DNA from: Chlorobiaceae bacterium | Lineage (GTDB): Bacteria; Bacteroidota; Ignavibacteria; Ignavibacteriales; Ignavibacteriaceae | Length of the DNA stretch: 64,000 bases | Assembly (NCBI GenBank): GCA_013824085.1 | Contig: PNNF01000004.1 | Span: 1 to 64,000 of the forward strand | Reading direction: 5' to 3' | Program-made: the position numbers and the translations under genes | Notes under the pieces: model-generated | Told to the model about the DNA's origin: nothing | The model's database searches: none | What the model saw: only the letters and a program-made list of their open reading frames with translations | In this document: positions 34,711 to 44,423 of the stretch, piece by piece | Layout of the letters: every line of letters begins with the position of its first letter | Position numbering within the stretch: the stretch's first letter is position 1

Positions 34711-37299
34711 TTAAAGCGCTTTTGTTTCTTTAAATATTTGAATTAAATAATCGATCGTTACGTACGTTGATTGAAAATAGACAAGGATTAGTCCAAGCAT
34801 TGCAAAAATTATTACAAAACTATAAAAATATACTTTCTCTGAACGCACATCATAGATAACGTAAATGCCTTTGAATAGCCGATACAAAGACCAGAAGACA
34901 AAAATCAAAAGTATGAGATACAAATAAATTTCAAATAGATTTAGACTTAACAATCGATAAAGAATTATTGCGAGCGGAATTGACAACGTGAATGGTAAGA
35001 ACGACCATACAACAGAAAAATATGCGTTCTTCGTGTAAACACGACTACTAACAAAAAATGATCCCGCCTTTATTAAAAGAGAGATGAATAATAATTTTAC
35101 AAAAATTAAGAGCGACAAAACAATAATTGCTTGAAGCGGATTCCATGTTAGAAAACTTACTGAGTTTATTAACGCAATGTTTCCAAAAGCTAAAATATAT
35201 TTTTCAAGAAAAATATTTGCTTTCAAATCATAAAGCAAACTGCTTACTAACAATGCTAATATTGCTGATATTACTACTCCCAACACTGTTGTCTGAATTC
35301 CAGAAATAATTCTTAAATCTCGAATGTCAGCAAAAAAATTATAAGGACGCAGCAGTGCACGTGAAGCATCTTCTCTAAACTTTCTTCCTGTATTAACTAA
35401 GAATCCCATCATCAATGCAAGCACTAAACCAACAACAATAAAAACCATTGGCGAGTCATCTTTCTTAACGCCAATTGGAATTGTAACTCTCTCTAATTCG
35501 TTTAACTCGGAACGAATAACTTTATATGAAATTCTATTTGTGTTTCTATCTTCACCCAAAATTCCGAGACTAACGATTCCTTCATTGCTATATCCCGACA
35601 CGATGGAATTATACTCTGTTCTATAATCAAACATTGTATTTAGAAAAAATCCAGTTGAATTATTTTCTTCAGAAAATTTCATTACATCTAAAAAGAATTT
35701 TGCTTGTGCTTCTAATGTGTGCGGATTAGTATATCCCGTTGAACCGCCAAGATTAGCAATGTAGCCCGCTTCACTAATAAAAACTTTTCCTTTACCAATT
35801 TTATTTTCTGAGTTTATTATCTGCTCTGAAATATTATTTATTGGTGAGTTCAAAATTTCAATTCCATAAAAATCAAGATTTTCTATTGGAGTTAAATCAG
35901 CATTAATAAATGAAGCATATACAATTCTGTTAAAATTTTTCCTGATGTCATTTGCAATTTGCGATATGAACGAATTAGTATTGAAATCATTGGAGATAAA
36001 TGATGTCCCCATTCCAATTGCTGCAATCGAAGAAAATTCTTTGTAAGAGTTTAAAAATCGCGAGACATAATTTTTTGTTCGTTGAATAAAAATATCGCTT
36101 CCCAATATTGACGAAGGAACTGATTGGAGCGGCAATTCTACAAATGCAAATAAACCAAACTCTTCACACAGTTCTAAAAAATATGGATGCGGAATTATTT
36201 TTGTAAATCTAACTGCGTTGAATCCTAACTCTTTTATCATTCTAATATCACGACGCATATTTTCATACGTCATCATACTTCCGTAATTATAATTCGAGGA
36301 GACATAAGTAACGCCACGAATTTGGAATCCTGAAGAATTTAACATCAGTGAATCTGCAGAAGAATGAAGCGAGTAAAATGAAATTGGATTTATGATTTCA
36401 TCAACTAAAACGCCTTGTCTAAAAATTTGAATAGTTAAATCATATCTTGCGGGATTACTCGGCGACCACAATTGCGGATTTACATTTAATGAAAAACTGA
36501 TCGCTTTGTCTTTCCCCTTTCTTACATCAACAACAACAGAGTTTGAACCGATCGTTGATAAATCTTGTCGCGAAGTTACAAATGCTTTTACTTCAAACAT
36601 AGTGCCAGCGGCGACAGAATCTTGCGGAGATTGAAATTCGCGATTCTCTAAGGAACAATTAATATTAATTTTTGTATTCGTTGAAGTTCGCGAAGTCAAA
36701 GTGTTGTAGGACAAATTTGAGATATAGATGTTCGGTAAAATTTTTATATATACATCTCTAAATATTCCGCCAAAATTTTCTGGTTTCAGAAAACCATGTT
36801 TTGAGGGAATCGTGTTTTGTCCATCGAGTTCGCTATTAATCTTTATTGAAAGCGTGTTTGCGGAATTACTTTTGATTAAATCTTTCGGTAAAAAAACGGA
36901 GAAAGGGAAATCGCCGCCTGTATGCCGAAAAATTATCGAGCCGTTCAACGAAATTTCGGCTGTGTAACTTAGTGCAAGCAGATGAAGTTCAAAATTATTA
37001 TTATTTAATTGCTCTGAAGTTATTTCAAATTTTTTTTCAAAAACTAACTCAGCATCTCCTTCAAAAATAGAAGGGACAAAAATTGTAGTTTTTTCCTTTT
37101 CTTCATCATCAGCTGAATAAATTTCCCATTTTCCATTCAATAAAAGAATATTTCTAACTGATGATTTTTCTAAAAACCGCAGCTGGTCTGTATTCAGAGT
37201 GTAATTGGGGAGATCTCTAACAAAAATCTGTGAAAAGCTCAATTTCAGTGAAAAGATAAAAAGAAAAATAAAAAACAGCGTTTTTCTAATAAGCGACAT
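34711..37299 (-). CDS. GH2-like pseudoenzyme with C-terminal polytopic membrane domain
   Basis: An 862-residue protein with a signal peptide (RKTLFFIFLFIFSLKLSFSQ). Residues about 45-190 resemble the GH2 sugar-binding jelly roll (LNGKWEIYS; LSYTAEISLNGS; NFGGIFRDVYI), then an Ig-like domain and a TIM barrel (DIRMIKELGFNAVRFT). At the end of the acid/base strand the GH2 GNE is replaced by GTS (IGMGTSFISND), so hydrolysis is doubtful; a Glu remains at the nucleophile position (FISEAGY, E510). From about residue 617 five or six membrane helices follow, reminiscent of Yip1-type domains. The preferred start is the ATG; a TTG 12 bases upstream is also in frame. It is first in the smc/lpx operon. 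Confidence 0.8.
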   Translation of the reverse strand: MSLIRKTLFFIFLFIFSLKLSFSQIFVRDLPNYTLNTDQLRFLEKSSVRNILLLNGKWEIYSADDEEKEKTTIFVPSIFEGDAELVFEKKFEITSEQLNNNNFELHLLALSYTAEISLNGSIIFRHTGGDFPFSVFLPKDLIKSNSANTLSIKINSELDGQNTIPSKHGFLKPENFGGIFRDVYIKILPNIYISNLSYNTLTSRTSTNTKININCSLENREFQSPQDSVAAGTMFEVKAFVTSRQDLSTIGSNSVVVDVRKGKDKAISFSLNVNPQLWSPSNPARYDLTIQIFRQGVLVDEIINPISFYSLHSSADSLMLNSSGFQIRGVTYVSSNYNYGSMMTYENMRRDIRMIKELGFNAVRFTKIIPHPYFLELCEEFGLFAFVELPLQSVPSSILGSDIFIQRTKNYVSRFLNSYKEFSSIAAIGMGTSFISNDFNTNSFISQIANDIRKNFNRIVYASFINADLTPIENLDFYGIEILNSPINNISEQIINSENKIGKGKVFISEAGYIANLGGSTGYTNPHTLEAQAKFFLDVMKFSEENNSTGFFLNTMFDYRTEYNSIVSGYSNEGIVSLGILGEDRNTNRISYKVIRSELNELERVTIPIGVKKDDSPMVFIVVGLVLALMMGFLVNTGRKFREDASRALLRPYNFFADIRDLRIISGIQTTVLGVVISAILALLVSSLLYDLKANIFLEKYILAFGNIALINSVSFLTWNPLQAIIVLSLLIFVKLLFISLLIKAGSFFVSSRVYTKNAYFSVVWSFLPFTLSIPLAIILYRLLSLNLFEIYLYLILLIFVFWSLYRLFKGIYVIYDVRSEKVYFYSFVIIFAMLGLILVYFQSTYVTIDYLIQIFKETKAL

Positions 37300-37338
37300 C
37301 AATAAATTCAAAATCCTTTAATTTTCATAAACGAATTA

Positions 37339-37576: not shown

Positions 37577-38842
37577 ATGCAATTTTTTGAGAACGAATCT
37601 TTTTATTATCGAGCTAATCAACTCTTTTGCGAAAACGTAAATCTCTCCGATTTAGCAACAGAAATTGAAACTCCCGTTTATATTTATAGCAAAACTTTTT
37701 TTAAGAATCGATATTTAGAATTTTCAAGAGCTTTCAGTAATCTTGACCACAAAATTTTTTATGCGGTTAAATCAAATTTTAACTTGAGCGTTATAAAAAC
37801 TTTTATCGATTTAGGAAGTGGCTTGGATATCAACTCGGAAGGAGAATTTTATAGAGCACTTTTGGCGGGAGCAAAACCTGAAAATATTATTTTAACGGGA
37901 CTCGGCAAAACTTATGAAGAGATAAAACTTGGAGTCGTGAATGATGTCCTGATGATTAAAGCAGAATCGTTGGACGAAATTATTTTGATAAACGAGATTG
38001 CGTCAAAGCTTGGAAAAATTGCGAACGTCGCCATTCGTGTAAATCCTGATGTTAATCCGCAAACGCATCCATACATTTCAACGGGACTATTAGAAAATAA
38101 ATTTGGACTTGATGAAGAGACGGCTCTTGGAATTTATGCTGATCACAATAAATTCAAATCAATTTGCTTCACTGGAATTGACATGCACATCGGTTCGCAA
38201 ATTACATCTACAGCTCCATTTGAAGATTCGGTAGAAAAACTTTCTGAAACTTTTTTTAAAGTGAAAGATTTAGGAATCGATCTTCATCATTTTGATATTG
38301 GTGGTGGATTTGGAAATCAATATCTAAACGAGAAAGTTTTTTCGATTCAGGAATTGGCAAACAAACTATTTCCACTATTTAATAAACTCAAATGCAAAAT
38401 ATTTTTTGAGCCGGGAAGATTTTTAACTGCAAACGGTGGAATAATTATTACAAAAGTAATTTATAACAAGTGTAACAAAACTAAAAATTTTATTGTCGTC
38501 GATTTAGGAATGAATGATCTCTTGCGACCCAGTATTTACACTGCTTATCACCACATTCAACCATTAAAAAATAATCTACACAAAGATATTGAAGCCGATA
38601 TTGTTGGACCTGTTTGCGAGAGTGGCGATTTTATAGCAAAAAACAGAACGATAGAATTAGTTGGACAAGGAGAATATTTAGCGGTGATGTCAACTGGAGC
38701 TTATGGAACAGTTATGTCTTCAAACTATAATGCGCGTAGGAGACCCGCAGAAATTATGATTGAAAACGATCAATGGAAAATTGTAAGAAGTAGAGAAAGT
38801 TTTGAGCATTTAGTATTTGATGAGAAGGAGAAATTACAATAA
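37577..38842 (+). CDS. lysA: Diaminopimelate decarboxylase
   Basis: LysA converts meso-diaminopimelate to L-lysine, using PLP. The 421-residue fold-III enzyme has the PLP lysine K65 in FYAVKSNFN, the HIGSQI motif, the GGGFG phosphate-binding loop, FFEPGRFLTANGG, and the CESGDF/GAYG residues that complete the active site at the dimer interface. Length is typical. It ends at the LD-carboxypeptidase start (TAATG overlap), linking lysine/DAP metabolism with peptidoglycan turnover. Confidence 0.96.
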   Translation: MQFFENESFYYRANQLFCENVNLSDLATEIETPVYIYSKTFFKNRYLEFSRAFSNLDHKIFYAVKSNFNLSVIKTFIDLGSGLDINSEGEFYRALLAGAKPENIILTGLGKTYEEIKLGVVNDVLMIKAESLDEIILINEIASKLGKIANVAIRVNPDVNPQTHPYISTGLLENKFGLDEETALGIYADHNKFKSICFTGIDMHIGSQITSTAPFEDSVEKLSETFFKVKDLGIDLHHFDIGGGFGNQYLNEKVFSIQELANKLFPLFNKLKCKIFFEPGRFLTANGGIIITKVIYNKCNKTKNFIVVDLGMNDLLRPSIYTAYHHIQPLKNNLHKDIEADIVGPVCESGDFIAKNRTIELVGQGEYLAVMSTGAYGTVMSSNYNARRRPAEIMIENDQWKIVRSRESFEHLVFDEKEKLQ

Positions 38843-39888
38843 TGAAGAGAAGAAATTTTATTGCGACAACTTTTTTTTCAAGCTTAGCATTGTTAGCAAC
38901 CAATAAAATCAAAGCTAATGAACGCTTTCAAATTGATGATGTAATTAAACCACCAAGGTTAAAAAGAGGTGACAAAATTGGTTTAATTGCTCCTGCTGGA
39001 TTTATTACAGAAGAGCAGATGAAAAAATCGATCACAAGTTTGGAAGGTTTAGGATTTAATGTAATTCCATCTAAAAATATTTTAAATAAATTTGGATACT
39101 TGGCTGGAACAGACAAAGAGCGCGCAGATGATCTTAACGAAATGTTTGCAAATAAAAATATCGCTGGAATAGTTTGCGCCCGCGGAGGATGGGGAGCTGC
39201 TCGCATATTAAGTTTGCTTGATTATAAACTCATAAAAAATAATCCAAAAGTTTTAGTTGGTTACAGCGATATAACTTCTTTGCTCTACGCAATTTTTAGA
39301 AATACTGGATTAATAACTTTCCACGGACCTGTTGGTATTTCAACCTTCAACGAATTTAGTATAAATAATTTTAATGATGTGCTTGTTAATCCAAGCAACG
39401 AGCTAACACTTTGGAATGCTGACGAAGAAAATAGCAGCGAAGATTATGAAAGATTCGTAGTTAGAAGTGGAATTTGCAATGGTAGATTAATAGGTGGAAA
39501 TTTATCAATCATGGTTTCGCTGATTGGAACTGATTACGATGTAAATCTAAAAGATGCAATTTATTTTATTGAAGATATTGGAGAAGAGCCATACAGCATT
39601 GACAGAATGTTAACGCAAATGATTCAAGCAAATAAATTTAAAGATGCTGCCGGAATAGTTTTTGGAGTCTGTTCAAAATGTATTTCAAAACCTGATGAAT
39701 CGGGAATTGGAAATTCGTTTTCGATAAAAGAAATTTTAATAGATCGTTTGTACAACTTGAACATACCCGTTATTTATGGCTTTTCTTTTGGGCACATTAC
39801 TAATAAATTTACTCTTCCATTTGGCGCAAAAGCCGAACTAAATGTAAACGAACAAACATTAACACTAAAAGAAAACGCAGTTACTTAA
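38842..39888 (+). CDS. Muramoyltetrapeptide LD-carboxypeptidase (peptidase S66)
   Basis: S66 enzymes remove the terminal D-Ala from murein tetrapeptides during recycling. The 348-residue product has the Ser nucleophile S142 in GYSDITSL, ARGGWGAARIL, a catalytic Glu in the FIEDIGEEPY region and the His in GFSFGHITNKFTLPFG. The N-terminus begins MKRRNFIATTF, a twin-arginine-like start followed by a hydrophobic stretch, so export (possibly by Tat) is possible. The start overlaps the lysA stop by one base. Confidence 0.92.
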   Translation: MKRRNFIATTFFSSLALLATNKIKANERFQIDDVIKPPRLKRGDKIGLIAPAGFITEEQMKKSITSLEGLGFNVIPSKNILNKFGYLAGTDKERADDLNEMFANKNIAGIVCARGGWGAARILSLLDYKLIKNNPKVLVGYSDITSLLYAIFRNTGLITFHGPVGISTFNEFSINNFNDVLVNPSNELTLWNADEENSSEDYERFVVRSGICNGRLIGGNLSIMVSLIGTDYDVNLKDAIYFIEDIGEEPYSIDRMLTQMIQANKFKDAAGIVFGVCSKCISKPDESGIGNSFSIKEILIDRLYNLNIPVIYGFSFGHITNKFTLPFGAKAELNVNEQTLTLKENAVT

Positions 39889-39902: not shown

Positions 39903-40442
39903 ATGAAAATCAAAGCATCGTTAGTTATTGTAATTATTTTTTCTTTCTTTTTTCAAGGATGTATAGTTTTTGAAAAAGTTTCATACGATATAAAATTAAA
40001 AACTCAAAACACGGGAACTGCAACAATAACTTTTTACAATTTAAAATCTGATGCGATTGGAAAGAAAGAATTTGAAGAAGATAAAGAAGCACTCTTTAAC
40101 TACTTGTTAAAATCAGAAGAGTTTGTTGAGCAAATGAAACTTGAAAATAAAAATATTTCATCAAGAAAATTATTTTTATCTGCAGATAAACTAAATGGCG
40201 AAGTTATTTATGGTTTTGATAATATTAATCATGTCGAAAATATTTTGTATCAAGATGGTTTTTATTTTTTGACTGTTAATCCTACTGATAGCATCATCTC
40301 AACAAATGGAGTTGTAATGACGTCGGGAGAATTTAAGCGAATTGTTTGGGACAGTAGTTTTAGGAACTTAAAATTTGAAATGCTCTCCGATATTAAACAA
40401 ATAAATTTAAGAGAGTTGGCTCCATTCTACAAAGAGAATTAA
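39903..40442 (+). CDS. Hypothetical lipoprotein
   Basis: A 179-residue protein with a lipoprotein signal: a hydrophobic stretch then FFQGC with the lipidated cysteine at position 20. The mature part is mixed alpha/beta and acidic, with no family I recognise. It follows the LD-carboxypeptidase by 14 bases in the lysA operon, and stops 55 bases before the convergent O-antigen ligase gene. No clear terminator hairpin is visible in that gap. Confidence 0.75.
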   Translation: MKIKASLVIVIIFSFFFQGCIVFEKVSYDIKLKTQNTGTATITFYNLKSDAIGKKEFEEDKEALFNYLLKSEEFVEQMKLENKNISSRKLFLSADKLNGEVIYGFDNINHVENILYQDGFYFLTVNPTDSIISTNGVVMTSGEFKRIVWDSSFRNLKFEMLSDIKQINLRELAPFYKEN

Positions 40443-40497: not shown

Positions 40498-42537
40498 CTA
40501 TTCTAAAGTTTTTGTGTATTGTTTATAGAACGCCAGATTCAATCCAAGAATAAACCAGATCATTGTAATAATTTCGTGATCACCAAAATTCCATTCAGCT
40601 AAGCCCGAAACAAGAAACGTTACGAAACTTGCGAGTGCTCCCAATGCATAAGATGAAGCGAAAGGAATTTCTTTTACTGAATTATAAATTTTAATGTGAA
40701 TCAAAAATATTTTAATCAGCAAGAAACTCACAACTGCGAACCCAAACAAACCAAGCGTTACAAGCAGATGGACATAATTGTTGTGCATGTGTCCAAAATT
40801 TTCTTTTAGATAATATGCTTTATATTCAGAATAAACTTTTCCTAAATCAATATCACCAACGCCAAAAACCAAGTGGTCTTTTAAAATCTTAAATCCAGTA
40901 TGCCAAATATTTATTCGCTCTAAATTTGTTTCGTGATATGGATCTATCATCGATGCAATGCGATTTCTTTTGTTGAGTGAAAAATAAAATTTATCATTCT
41001 CTTTTGTTACAGACATTGGAGAAAAACCAACTGATGCAATTTTACTTAATGAATTATTCGCATCAATTTTGAAAAGATCTCCGTCAACAGTTGTAACTAA
41101 GATTTTCTCGTTTTCAAAAATCATGTTGGATGTTCCGCGAATATCAAATGAAGTCACCAGCGTCAGTTTATTATTTTTAATTTCATATTGCTGAAGTTGT
41201 TCTAAGTTTTGAAGAAAAATATTTCCATTGTAAATCCAAACAAAACCCATAGCCGTTTCAACAATTATCGAGTCTATTTTTTTTGTTGGCAATTTATCTT
41301 TCAATTGATAAAGCACTAAGCTGCGGGCATTATTATAAAAAGCGATAAGATAATTACTATCAGCATCAACGCTACTTAAATGTTTCTTTTCTCTGAAATG
41401 AAATTTATCATTTAGATTTTTTGGATTGCGAAACACAGTTAATCCGCTATCATCATCGGCAATGTAAAAAGCATCATTTCTTATCACTGAAAAAACACTT
41501 CTACCGGGAGAAGCAAACTCATCTATTTTTTTCATTCCTTCGGGAGTTTTTTCTAACAATAAAATACGCGAATCAACTAACCATAAAGCGAAGTAATTTT
41601 CTTTCCAATATTTAATTCCCGTTGCGGGAGAAGGCGTTGCGATAGATTGCAATAATTTTTCATTACTATAAATTTTTAATCCGTCTTGATAATCAGCAAC
41701 AAACAACGTATCGTTTAGCAACAACACGTCATAAGCTCTTCCATCAGTTCTAAATTCTTTTACAAAATTTAGTTTACTATCAGCGAGTGAGAATGAAAAT
41801 ATTTTACTCTCTGTTTTTGGAAATGAAGCAGCAAGAATTATCAAACCAACAAAAGCAGTTAGCACAATCCATCTTCGTTTTATCAACAGAATAAAAAACA
41901 GACCTGCTGCTGTTCCCATCCAAGCAGCACGCGTATAGCTTGAAAGTAGTGCGAGCAACGAAATAAAAAATGCGATTAGAATTAATGTTTTAAAAATTGG
42001 TTTTGTTTTTTCATTAAGCAGAAATGCGAAAAGAAAAACTACACTGAAGCTAATCAATCCGCCCGCAGTCATTACGTATTGAAATGGTGATGGACCTCGT
42101 GCAGCCAATTGATACAAGTGCGAAACAAAATGTTCATACGCAAAAGCAATATAAAAGATGCTCGTTGTAACAGCAGCTATGATATAAACTTTAAAAAATA
42201 ATTTTGCTTTTTGGGGATTGTCAACTGAAACATAAATCGTGTAAACAATTGGAATGAGCAAAAAGCGTTTTAATAAGTTATGAAAAGATTGCGCCGAATA
42301 ATCTGACAATATTGAAGAGATAAGCTCCGCCAGCAAAAAGAGAATGAATGGAATTTCTAAACCAGTTTTGGAAAATTTATTTTCTTTAGAGATGATAAAT
42401 CGAATTAGTATTGACAACAGAGCGCCATAATAGCCTAACTGATTCACAAAAATTGAATTCGTTAATGTGACCAGAAAAAGTACTATGAAGAATAAAATAA
42501 TTTTATCAACTATCGAAATTAATTTTACCTTCTCCAT
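40498..42537 (-). CDS. O-antigen ligase (WaaL/Wzy) family protein with inserted beta-propeller-like domain
   Basis: A 679-residue inner-membrane protein. The N-terminal ~240 residues have about nine membrane helices, with the conserved Arg in SYTRAAWMG. The C-terminal part restarts with RINIWHTGFKILKDHLVFGVG (541-561), a periplasmic HMHNNYVHLL motif (583-592, containing the essential-type His) and two to three helices. These match WaaL/Wzy. Between them, about residues 245-525, is a soluble repeat region with blades such as VLLLNDTLFVADYQDGLKIYS and VIRNDAFYIADDDSGLTVF, resembling LVIVP-type propellers. Typical ligases have only a short loop there. Downstream of the MsbA-like exporter by five bases. 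Confidence 0.82.
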   Translation of the reverse strand: MEKVKLISIVDKIILFFIVLFLVTLTNSIFVNQLGYYGALLSILIRFIISKENKFSKTGLEIPFILFLLAELISSILSDYSAQSFHNLLKRFLLIPIVYTIYVSVDNPQKAKLFFKVYIIAAVTTSIFYIAFAYEHFVSHLYQLAARGPSPFQYVMTAGGLISFSVVFLFAFLLNEKTKPIFKTLILIAFFISLLALLSSYTRAAWMGTAAGLFFILLIKRRWIVLTAFVGLIILAASFPKTESKIFSFSLADSKLNFVKEFRTDGRAYDVLLLNDTLFVADYQDGLKIYSNEKLLQSIATPSPATGIKYWKENYFALWLVDSRILLLEKTPEGMKKIDEFASPGRSVFSVIRNDAFYIADDDSGLTVFRNPKNLNDKFHFREKKHLSSVDADSNYLIAFYNNARSLVLYQLKDKLPTKKIDSIIVETAMGFVWIYNGNIFLQNLEQLQQYEIKNNKLTLVTSFDIRGTSNMIFENEKILVTTVDGDLFKIDANNSLSKIASVGFSPMSVTKENDKFYFSLNKRNRIASMIDPYHETNLERINIWHTGFKILKDHLVFGVGDIDLGKVYSEYKAYYLKENFGHMHNNYVHLLVTLGLFGFAVVSFLLIKIFLIHIKIYNSVKEIPFASSYALGALASFVTFLVSGLAEWNFGDHEIITMIWFILGLNLAFYKQYTKTLE

Positions 42538-42542
42538 AATTA

Positions 42543-44423
42543 TTAATCTCTAAACTGAAGTTCGTATAATTTTTTATAAAGTCCTTTTTCATTCTTAAGC
42601 AGCTCTTCGTGTTTTCCCATCTGCACAATTTTTCCTTTATCCATAACAATTATTTTATCAGCATTACGAATGGTGCTCAATCTATGTGCTATCACAAATG
42701 TTGTTCTGTTTTTCATTAATCGTTCAATTGCTTCTTGCACCAACACTTCTGATTCATTATCGAGTGCAGAAGTAGCTTCATCAAAAATCATTATCTGCGG
42801 ATTTTTCAATAATGCTCGCGCTATTGATAATCGTTGTCTTTGTCCACCTGAAAGTTTTAATCCTCTTTCGCCAATTAATGTATCGTAGCCATTTGGAATT
42901 TCACTAATAAAATTATGTGCGTTGGCTGTCTTTGCAGCTTCAATAATTAATTCGTCGGAACAATCATCAAGTCCATAAGCAATATTATTTTTAATTGTTT
43001 CGTTGAAAAGAATTGTTTCTTGTGTAACAATTCCCATCAAGTTTCTTAAGTCTTCTATTTTTATCTCAGTCAACTTTAGATCATCAATAAAAATGCTACC
43101 GGAAGTTGGGTCATAAAATCTTGGAATCAGATCAACGAGTGTTGATTTACCCGCACCACTTGGACCAACGAGCGCAATAATCTCTCCTTTTTTTATTTCA
43201 AAAGAGACATCATCTAAGATTGTTTCATCCGAATCATCATAATGAAAAGAGACATTCGAAAAAGTAATTTTTTCTTTTAAACTTTCAACATTTTTTGCAT
43301 TAGGAACGTCTTTAATTCGTGGTTCAATGTCAATAATTTCAAAAACTCTTTCTGCTGCGGCTGATGATTCTTGAATTCTATTGTTGACGCTGCTCAGTTC
43401 TTTAACAGGAGTCATCAATTGAAAAATTGCGAATAAGAATCCTAGAAATTCGCTCGCTCTTAGTCCACCATCTTCCAGAACAATTCTTCCACCATAATAA
43501 ATAATGGCTGCACCAACGATTACACTTAAAAATTCTGTTAGCGGACTTGCGGCATTTCTGATGCGAATAAGTTTTAGTGTTGTCCTAAAATATTTAAATG
43601 TTCCTTGTGCAAATTTTGTGTTCTCATATTTTTCCATACCAAATGCTTTTACAATCTTAACTCCAGAAATTGTTTCGTGTAAAAGATTTGTAATCTCACT
43701 CATTTTTTCTTGAAGAATGCCGCTCTCTTTTCGTAGCGTTAAACCAATTGTTGCAATAATAACGAGCGAAAAAGGGACTATGATTAATGCAAACAGAGTA
43801 AGCGTTGGTGAAATTGAAACTGCAATTCCAAGAAAAACTAAAATTGTAATTGGCTCTCTAATCAAATTTAAAAATACTGCTGCAACGCTTCCTTGCACAA
43901 CTTGAACATCATTCACCACTCTTGAAATTAAATTCCCCGTTTTTTCATTCTTAAAAAAACTCATTGGCAATTTGTGAAGATGATTGTAAGCTTGATTTCG
44001 AAAGTCTTTAACAAAGCCTTGCTCTGCATATGCGAGGAGAAATGATTGAATGTATCCAAATAAATTTTTTAGAAAAAAAGCAAGGACAACTAAAAAACAG
44101 ATTTTTATAAGTGCGTCTATTTTTGTTCCATCAAAAACAAATTCATTAAATGTTTTCGATACGGTCTCTTGTATAGATTCAAAAAATCCCGGAGAAATTG
44201 CATCGGCGATATTAGTTTCCGGTGCTGCTGTAGTTTGTTCAACTAATTTTGATTCTTGAAAAAGCGTCGAGAGTAGTGGAATAGTTAGATAGACCGATGC
44301 ACCATTCATAACAGCGAACAAAATACTAAAGACAATTGAACCTGCGACATACTTTTTGTATGGCTTTATGTAAGCTAAAATTCTAAGGTAAGTTCTGTAT
44401 CCTGATTTTTTCTTTTCACTCAT
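42543..44423 (-). CDS. MsbA-like ABC exporter (fused permease and ATPase)
   Basis: A 626-residue half-transporter. Six membrane helices occupy about residues 20-330, with a soluble insert between helices 1 and 2 (about 60-105). The ATPase domain shows Walker A GPSGAGKST, Q-loop VTQETILF, the ABC signature LSGGQRQRLSIARAL, Walker B QIMIFDEATSALD and H-loop VIAHRLSTI. The family exports lipid A-core, phospholipids or peptides as homodimers. Placement next to an O-antigen ligase suggests a lipid or lipid-linked glycan substrate. Confidence 0.9.
   Translation of the reverse strand: MSEKKKSGYRTYLRILAYIKPYKKYVAGSIVFSILFAVMNGASVYLTIPLLSTLFQESKLVEQTTAAPETNIADAISPGFFESIQETVSKTFNEFVFDGTKIDALIKICFLVVLAFFLKNLFGYIQSFLLAYAEQGFVKDFRNQAYNHLHKLPMSFFKNEKTGNLISRVVNDVQVVQGSVAAVFLNLIREPITILVFLGIAVSISPTLTLFALIIVPFSLVIIATIGLTLRKESGILQEKMSEITNLLHETISGVKIVKAFGMEKYENTKFAQGTFKYFRTTLKLIRIRNAASPLTEFLSVIVGAAIIYYGGRIVLEDGGLRASEFLGFLFAIFQLMTPVKELSSVNNRIQESSAAAERVFEIIDIEPRIKDVPNAKNVESLKEKITFSNVSFHYDDSDETILDDVSFEIKKGEIIALVGPSGAGKSTLVDLIPRFYDPTSGSIFIDDLKLTEIKIEDLRNLMGIVTQETILFNETIKNNIAYGLDDCSDELIIEAAKTANAHNFISEIPNGYDTLIGERGLKLSGGQRQRLSIARALLKNPQIMIFDEATSALDNESEVLVQEAIERLMKNRTTFVIAHRLSTIRNADKIIVMDKGKIVQMGKHEELLKNEKGLYKKLYELQFRD

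Follow-up and report, generated by a model that had tools for sequence, protein, structure and literature searches.

To our knowledge, the way in which O-antigen ligases choose their donors and acceptors is poorly understood, and the known O-antigen ligases have no more than a small periplasmic loop beside the active site. The window analyzed here, a stretch of 64,000 nucleotides from the genome assembly of a Chlorobiaceae bacterium of the class Ignavibacteria, contains on its minus strand (40498–42537) a gene for which a sequence-only reading had proposed an O-antigen ligase family protein with a propeller-like domain in that loop. The locus thus raises the questions of whether such a fusion is real, which reaction the enzyme is likely to catalyze, and what a propeller at this place could contribute to it. 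The open-access literature that was covered yielded no description of the fusion and no relevant content on an O-antigen ligase of Ignavibacteria.

The gene, its frame and the fold of the insert

The gene is an uninterrupted open reading frame with an ATG start that encodes a protein of 679 amino acids, whose sole Pfam match, to the O-antigen ligase domain Wzy_C (68.8 bits against a curated cut-off of 31.7; E-value 5.8e-19), bears out the proposed family membership; the same domain is matched by 31 of 31 homologues. The Wzy_C match falls into two stretches, covering profile positions 1–85 and 61–148 with the second located at residues 516–603, and the insert therefore interrupts the domain, after the last membrane helix of the N-terminal part and ahead of the periplasmic catalytic helix. 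The protein comprises an N-terminal membrane part (residues 1–240; 41818–42537, minus strand), defined by the helices of an AlphaFold2 model and orthologous to ligases that lack the insert; the insert itself (residues 243–523; 40969–41811, minus strand), which is absent in sister orthologues; and a C-terminal catalytic part (residues 524–679; 40501–40968, minus strand), recognized by residues kept in the insert-less sisters and by HMM alignment to the WaaL structure 7TPG. The earlier assignment of the DNA at 40963–41805 to residues 245–525 was correct, the modelled propeller extending from residue 243 to residue 523.

The full-length AlphaFold2 model, built from an alignment of 31 full-length homologues, has a mean pLDDT of 91.5 and a pTM of 0.86, and residues 243–523 form 28 beta-strands in it; modelled alone, the insert again yields 28 strands, with a pLDDT of 94.8 and a pTM of 0.90. 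Judging from strand spacing, the strands at 243–252 and 255–263 complete the last blade, which is started by those at 509–513 and 516–523. A Foldseek search against the PDB matched the insert to propellers (beta-TrCP, WDR12, BamB and others), with best TM-scores on the query of about 0.67–0.70. With 28 strands, this pTM and these PDB matches, the model describes a closed ring of four-stranded blades, and the insert claimed for the periplasmic loop is almost certainly a closed seven-bladed propeller with its strands arranged in fours. The blades had also been described as "LVIVP"-like, which we take to mean LVIVD (PF08309). This part of the claim held for five of the 31 homologues, which match LVIVD weakly (best E-value 1.7e-5), others matching NHL and further propeller models, but not for the window protein, which has no Pfam match to LVIVD at E ≤ 1 and matches none of the Pfam propeller models by sequence. 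Within the class, the nearest non-ligase sequence relatives of the insert are stand-alone LVIVD proteins.

A frameshift or misassembly that joined two genes, the error against which the sequence-only reading had cautioned, was ruled out, since the architecture is intact across relatives: 36 of 59 relatives, single-contig genomes among them, have the same full-length frame with zero internal stops, at 28–52% identity, and 40 of the 67 genomes sampled from the order encode the propeller ligase. For the latter count, a frame of 571–743 amino acids had to match an insert profile with an E-value no higher than 1e-30; the profile search covered one phylum, including the 67 sampled genomes of the order, and a pattern-based contig search for close relatives returned three loci only. 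A Melioribacter MAG is one of the relatives, which makes Ignavibacteriales the probable order; the propeller ligase is also found, as proteins of about 690 amino acids, in another family of the class (f54). The spread, whose extent in Ignavibacteria had been left as a point to check, is therefore wide within the order, and it is near certain that the propeller ligase is a real feature.

Identity of the enzyme and its neighbourhood

A profile of the insert-less orthologues aligns with WaaL (7TPG) over positions 29–379, that is, 351 of 392 positions, with an E-value of 3.2e-14, and a profile built on the propeller form matches the C-terminal catalytic part of the same structure (E-value 7.3e-7). 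In WaaL, Arg191, Arg265 and His313 reportedly serve in diphosphate binding and acceptor activation (PMC10920833). The conserved arginine and histidine residues noted earlier fall opposite these three: R203 (41929–41931, minus strand) is equivalent to Arg191, of Und-PP binding, in the profile alignment of the insert-less orthologues to 7TPG, whereas R541 (40915–40917, minus strand) and H585 (40783–40785, minus strand) are equivalent in the HMM alignment to Arg265 and to His313, the residue of proposed acceptor activation. R203, R541 and H585 are kept in 29, 31 and 31 of the 31 homologues, respectively; the propeller ligases of two loci (L029 and L030, from genomes G007 and G032) have a methionine at the R203 position and keep R541 and H585. 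The catalytic part is marked by the motifs R526xxSxxDPYxxxNxxR541 and G582-H-x-H585-N-N, in which R526, S529, N538, R541, H583 and H585 are kept in every insert-less sister orthologue checked. The helix pattern of the AlphaFold2 model, with about nine predicted membrane segments before the insert and three after it, corresponds to the WaaL pattern of approximately 12 membrane helices whose large periplasmic loop is close to the C-terminus.

Directly upstream of the ligase lies a gene for an MsbA-type lipid A exporter (42543–44423, minus strand), for which TIGR02203 MsbA_lipidA is the best NCBIfam match, with an E-value of 4e-158 and a score below the equivalog cut-off. An msbA gene adjoins the ligase in 33 of 38 loci with the insert and in eight of nine without it, and the gene order msbA–ligase–GT2–NAD kinase–thioredoxin is common to both kinds of locus. 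Several propeller-ligase copies also adjoin a PF02397 initiating sugar transferase together with GT1, GT4 and GT2 genes, which are genes of an Und-PP-linked glycan; msbA, GT2 and the PF02397 clusters are the neighbourhood evidence for a putative transfer of Und-PP-linked O-antigen to lipid A-core. The propeller ligase is located away from msbA in several genomes (loci L121, L124, L127 and L143); in G051, G039, G045, G027 and G009 it lies away from the msbA locus and the ligase slot there is empty.

On the basis of these sequence comparisons, the protein is probably a WaaL-type ligase. The Wzy_C fold is common to WaaL and PglL-type enzymes, and an insert-less orthologue matches the NCBIfam models PEP_O_lig_1 (2.3e-17) and TfpM (2.5e-9) below their cut-offs, which would be compatible with a protein O-oligosaccharyltransferase of the PglL/TfpM kind whose propeller recognizes acceptor proteins. 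We consider this quite unlikely, as PEP_O_lig_1 scores 27.5 bits against a cut-off of 188 in the window protein, TfpM scores 36.7 bits against a cut-off of 600 in an insert-less orthologue, and neither a pilin-like gene nor any other evident acceptor gene lies next to the ligase, where msbA and a GT2 gene are conserved. A Wzy-type O-antigen polymerase appears highly improbable: polymerases are also covered by Wzy_C and O-antigen-type gene clusters adjoin several of the copies, but the ligase-type histidine motif HxHNN is invariant, the whole-length structural relative is WaaL, the ancestral locus is that of msbA, and the window's genome encodes, next to a sugar transferase on contig C32, another Wzy_C protein that is a better candidate for that function.

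Other genes around the ligase are of some interest in themselves. The gene at 34711–37311 (minus strand) combines a glycoside hydrolase family 2-like part with an apparent C-terminal Yip1-type membrane domain, an unusual combination for which the Pfam matches are modest and that to Yip1 is below the cut-off. A peptidase of family S66 (LD-carboxypeptidase) is encoded at 38842–39888 (plus strand) and has a twin-arginine-like N-terminus (MKRRNFIA), suggesting that it may be exported; S66 LD-carboxypeptidases are usually cytoplasmic. Convergent with the ligase gene, a putative lipoprotein of 179 amino acids (39903–40442, plus strand) has a lipobox-like FFFQGC sequence and no Pfam match.

Origin of the insert and the plain ligase in its place

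In the sister families f5, f10, f15 and f16 the orthologue is 387–440 amino acids long and lacks the insert, and about 8 residues lead from the last N-terminal helix to the motif RxxSIxDPxxxxNxxR. The presence of this motif in the insert-less sisters marks it as ancestral, and the propeller was inserted immediately ahead of it. In a tree computed on the ligase columns only, the propeller rows form one clade (SH-aLRT 99), the propeller state changes once as compared with a shuffled mean of 11.7 changes, and the single clade holds after the addition of five more plain ligases; the f4 outgroup and some other rows are on long branches, and the details inside the tree are unsure. A single clade, with plain outgroups and a plain WaaL, makes one gain the simplest reading, and on these sequence data a single acquisition in an ancestor of the Ignavibacteria lineage appears likeliest.

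At five loci examined in genomes of the order that lack the propeller form, the slot after msbA is occupied by a different Wzy_C protein of approximately 390 amino acids, whose family forms a long-branch clade of its own on the ligase tree. The idea that the propeller was lost secondarily within the order was rejected because the plain ligases in this slot, forming a separate clade, represent displacements and not deletion derivatives of the propeller ligase. With plain ligases counted at an E-value of 5e-86 or better, 40 of the 67 genomes have the propeller ligase, 18 the plain ligase, nine neither and none both, against an expected co-occurrence of 10.7 (hypergeometric P about 5e-10, a value that ignores relatedness). 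Both types are found, in different species, inside three genera (g4, g32 and g37), and the exclusion therefore does not reflect one ancient split. Mutual exclusion that extends to species within a genus suggests that the propeller ligase and the plain ligase do the same job. As plain ligases fill the same slot and replace the propeller form, the propeller is dispensable for the reaction, which it would modulate and not perform.

Two observations concern the plain ligase as such. In one genome the msbA slot contains a plain ligase gene (G003:C111:20576-21717; L150:5035-6218) that stop codons interrupt, which may point to a pseudogene or a sequencing error. Another genome carries two plain-ligase copies (G457:C40 and G457:C177), and its genus-mate G039 has the propeller ligase.

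A possible role for the propeller and its relation to known systems

The strand order of the propeller is informative about its orientation: the chain enters the last blade at strand C (C7) and leaves it at strand B (B7), so that both chain ends and the D-A and B-C loops lie on one face. Conservation is higher in the loops of this chain-end face than in the loops of the other face (means of 2.03 versus 1.48 bits, one-sided P 0.008), with nearly all of the signal in blades 1–3 (residues 264–369; 41431–41748, minus strand), which the alignment of the 31 homologues and the per-loop conservation identify as the most conserved part of the propeller; blades 4–7 are poorly conserved. The conserved positions, located mostly in D-A and B-C loops, are T264xGRA268, D282Y..G286, P304, D322xR324, P344-G345 and D361xDSG365, of which those of blade 1 and P304 are largely kept in f54 and those of blade 3 are partly changed. 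Part of this pattern (G..A, D..GL) belongs to the usual LVIVD repeat motif, and the conservation may therefore reflect folding as well as docking. By its chain topology, the conserved surface would face the protein's own ligase part, in line with a role at the active site.

That the propeller is a structural passenger, without a specific role and lodged where the loop tolerates an insertion, is conceivable in that the ends of a closed propeller are close together, hence its insertion is tolerated, and in that it evolves faster than the ligase parts and is replaced by plain ligases. The propeller is nevertheless under purifying selection, with dN/dS values of 0.07–0.20 (0.12 in the least saturated pair, with unsaturated dS), and has conserved loop residues; it is intact in every member of the propeller clade seen, in two lineages of the class, and no propeller-deletion derivative was found in that clade. 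We therefore consider a mere passenger very unlikely.

The reading that we favour, although we put its chances at about even, is a WaaL-type LPS ligase with a propeller docked over the active site, where it would help to select or gate a substrate. A GT-C-fold ligase would transfer the Und-PP-linked glycan to lipid A-core at the periplasmic face of the inner membrane, with MsbA delivering the lipid A-core acceptor. An LVIVD/WD40-like propeller would have entered the protein once, where the large periplasmic loop begins and immediately ahead of the catalytic helix on which the second diphosphate-binding arginine is located, and would be tethered by 4 residues to the membrane helix and by 12 to the catalytic helix. 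Its chain-end face, with the loops of blades 1–3, would then dock on the catalytic loop and cover the active site, an arrangement deduced from chain topology and not from measured contacts, and the propeller would act as a selecting or gating module for the donor glycan or the lipid A-core, outside the chemistry itself.

Propellers are common interaction platforms, and this one could alternatively recruit a partner such as the Lpt bridge, MsbA or an envelope lipoprotein, thereby coupling ligation to lipid A export or LPS transport. The frequent msbA neighbour would be compatible with such a role, as would a lipoprotein family whose gene lies immediately upstream of msbA in 19 of the 38 loci with the insert as opposed to none of the nine without it. 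The members of this undescribed, order-specific family (cluster 6; L036:1897-3135, L117:4694-5938 and 17 further loci) are 320–436 amino acids long and have a lipobox, a weak SPOR domain and weak propeller-like matches, with no confident Pfam or NCBIfam assignment in those scanned. The lipoprotein was rejected as a dedicated partner, because it also occurs in genomes of the order that lack the propeller ligase (for example G003, G013, G019, G028, G041, G053 and G056) and is absent from the window's genome and, in full length, from f54; it is a lineage gene that tracks the order and not the propeller. With the ligase also found away from msbA and the conserved face directed towards the ligase instead of outward, a docking platform seems unlikely.

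A more specific variant of the selecting module is a long shot: the propeller as a glycan receptor acting in cis, by which a single ligase would tell Und-PP-linked glycans apart, for example to separate bulk O-antigen from a dedicated A-LPS-like glycan destined for T9SS anchoring. If true, this would be substrate choice of a kind not known from WaaL enzymes. Matches to a PorU-type sortase model were present in all 53 genomes tested, whatever the ligase type, and are therefore uninformative on a link to T9SS.

Placed beside known systems, the selecting or gating propeller has partial precedents. The protein shares with WaaL (CAZy GT121; 7TPG/7TPJ, from Cupriavidus metallidurans; PMC10920833) the Wzy_C domain, the periplasmic catalytic loop and the equivalents of Arg191, Arg265 and His313, the msbA neighbourhood in this comparison belonging to the orthologues; WaaL has no globular loop domain, whereas here a 281-residue seven-bladed propeller precedes the helix of the Arg265 equivalent. 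The fusion of an O-antigen ligase to an extra folded domain is known from WadA of Brucella, a bimodular enzyme of GT25 and GT121 parts (PMC9938171, PMC10920833), in which the additional domain is a cytoplasmic N-terminal glycosyltransferase, unlike the present domain, which has no enzyme match and resides inside the periplasmic loop. In its fold the insert resembles LVIVD (PF08309) and other WD40-like seven-bladed propellers, with the weak sequence match in some homologues, but is here inserted inside a membrane enzyme; a protein that binds an LPS (A-LPS), likened by fold only, also has seven-bladed propellers and is a separate cell-surface protein. The protein O-mannosyltransferases carry in a loop a lumenal MIR beta-trefoil that binds the glycosylated product weakly (PMC7759382), and in both cases a multi-pass glycosyltransferase that uses lipid-linked sugars holds a soluble beta-domain between two membrane helices on the side of the active site, although the MIR enzymes are eukaryotic, belong to a different family and have a beta-trefoil in place of a propeller. 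A loop-inserted propeller is thus added to the architectures of lipid-linked-sugar glycosyltransferases, as a bacterial parallel to the MIR domains. The three comparable versions at one msbA locus, an orthologue without the domain, the same enzyme with the propeller, and a plain ligase that is never found together with the propeller form, allow the contribution of the periplasmic region to be tested directly.
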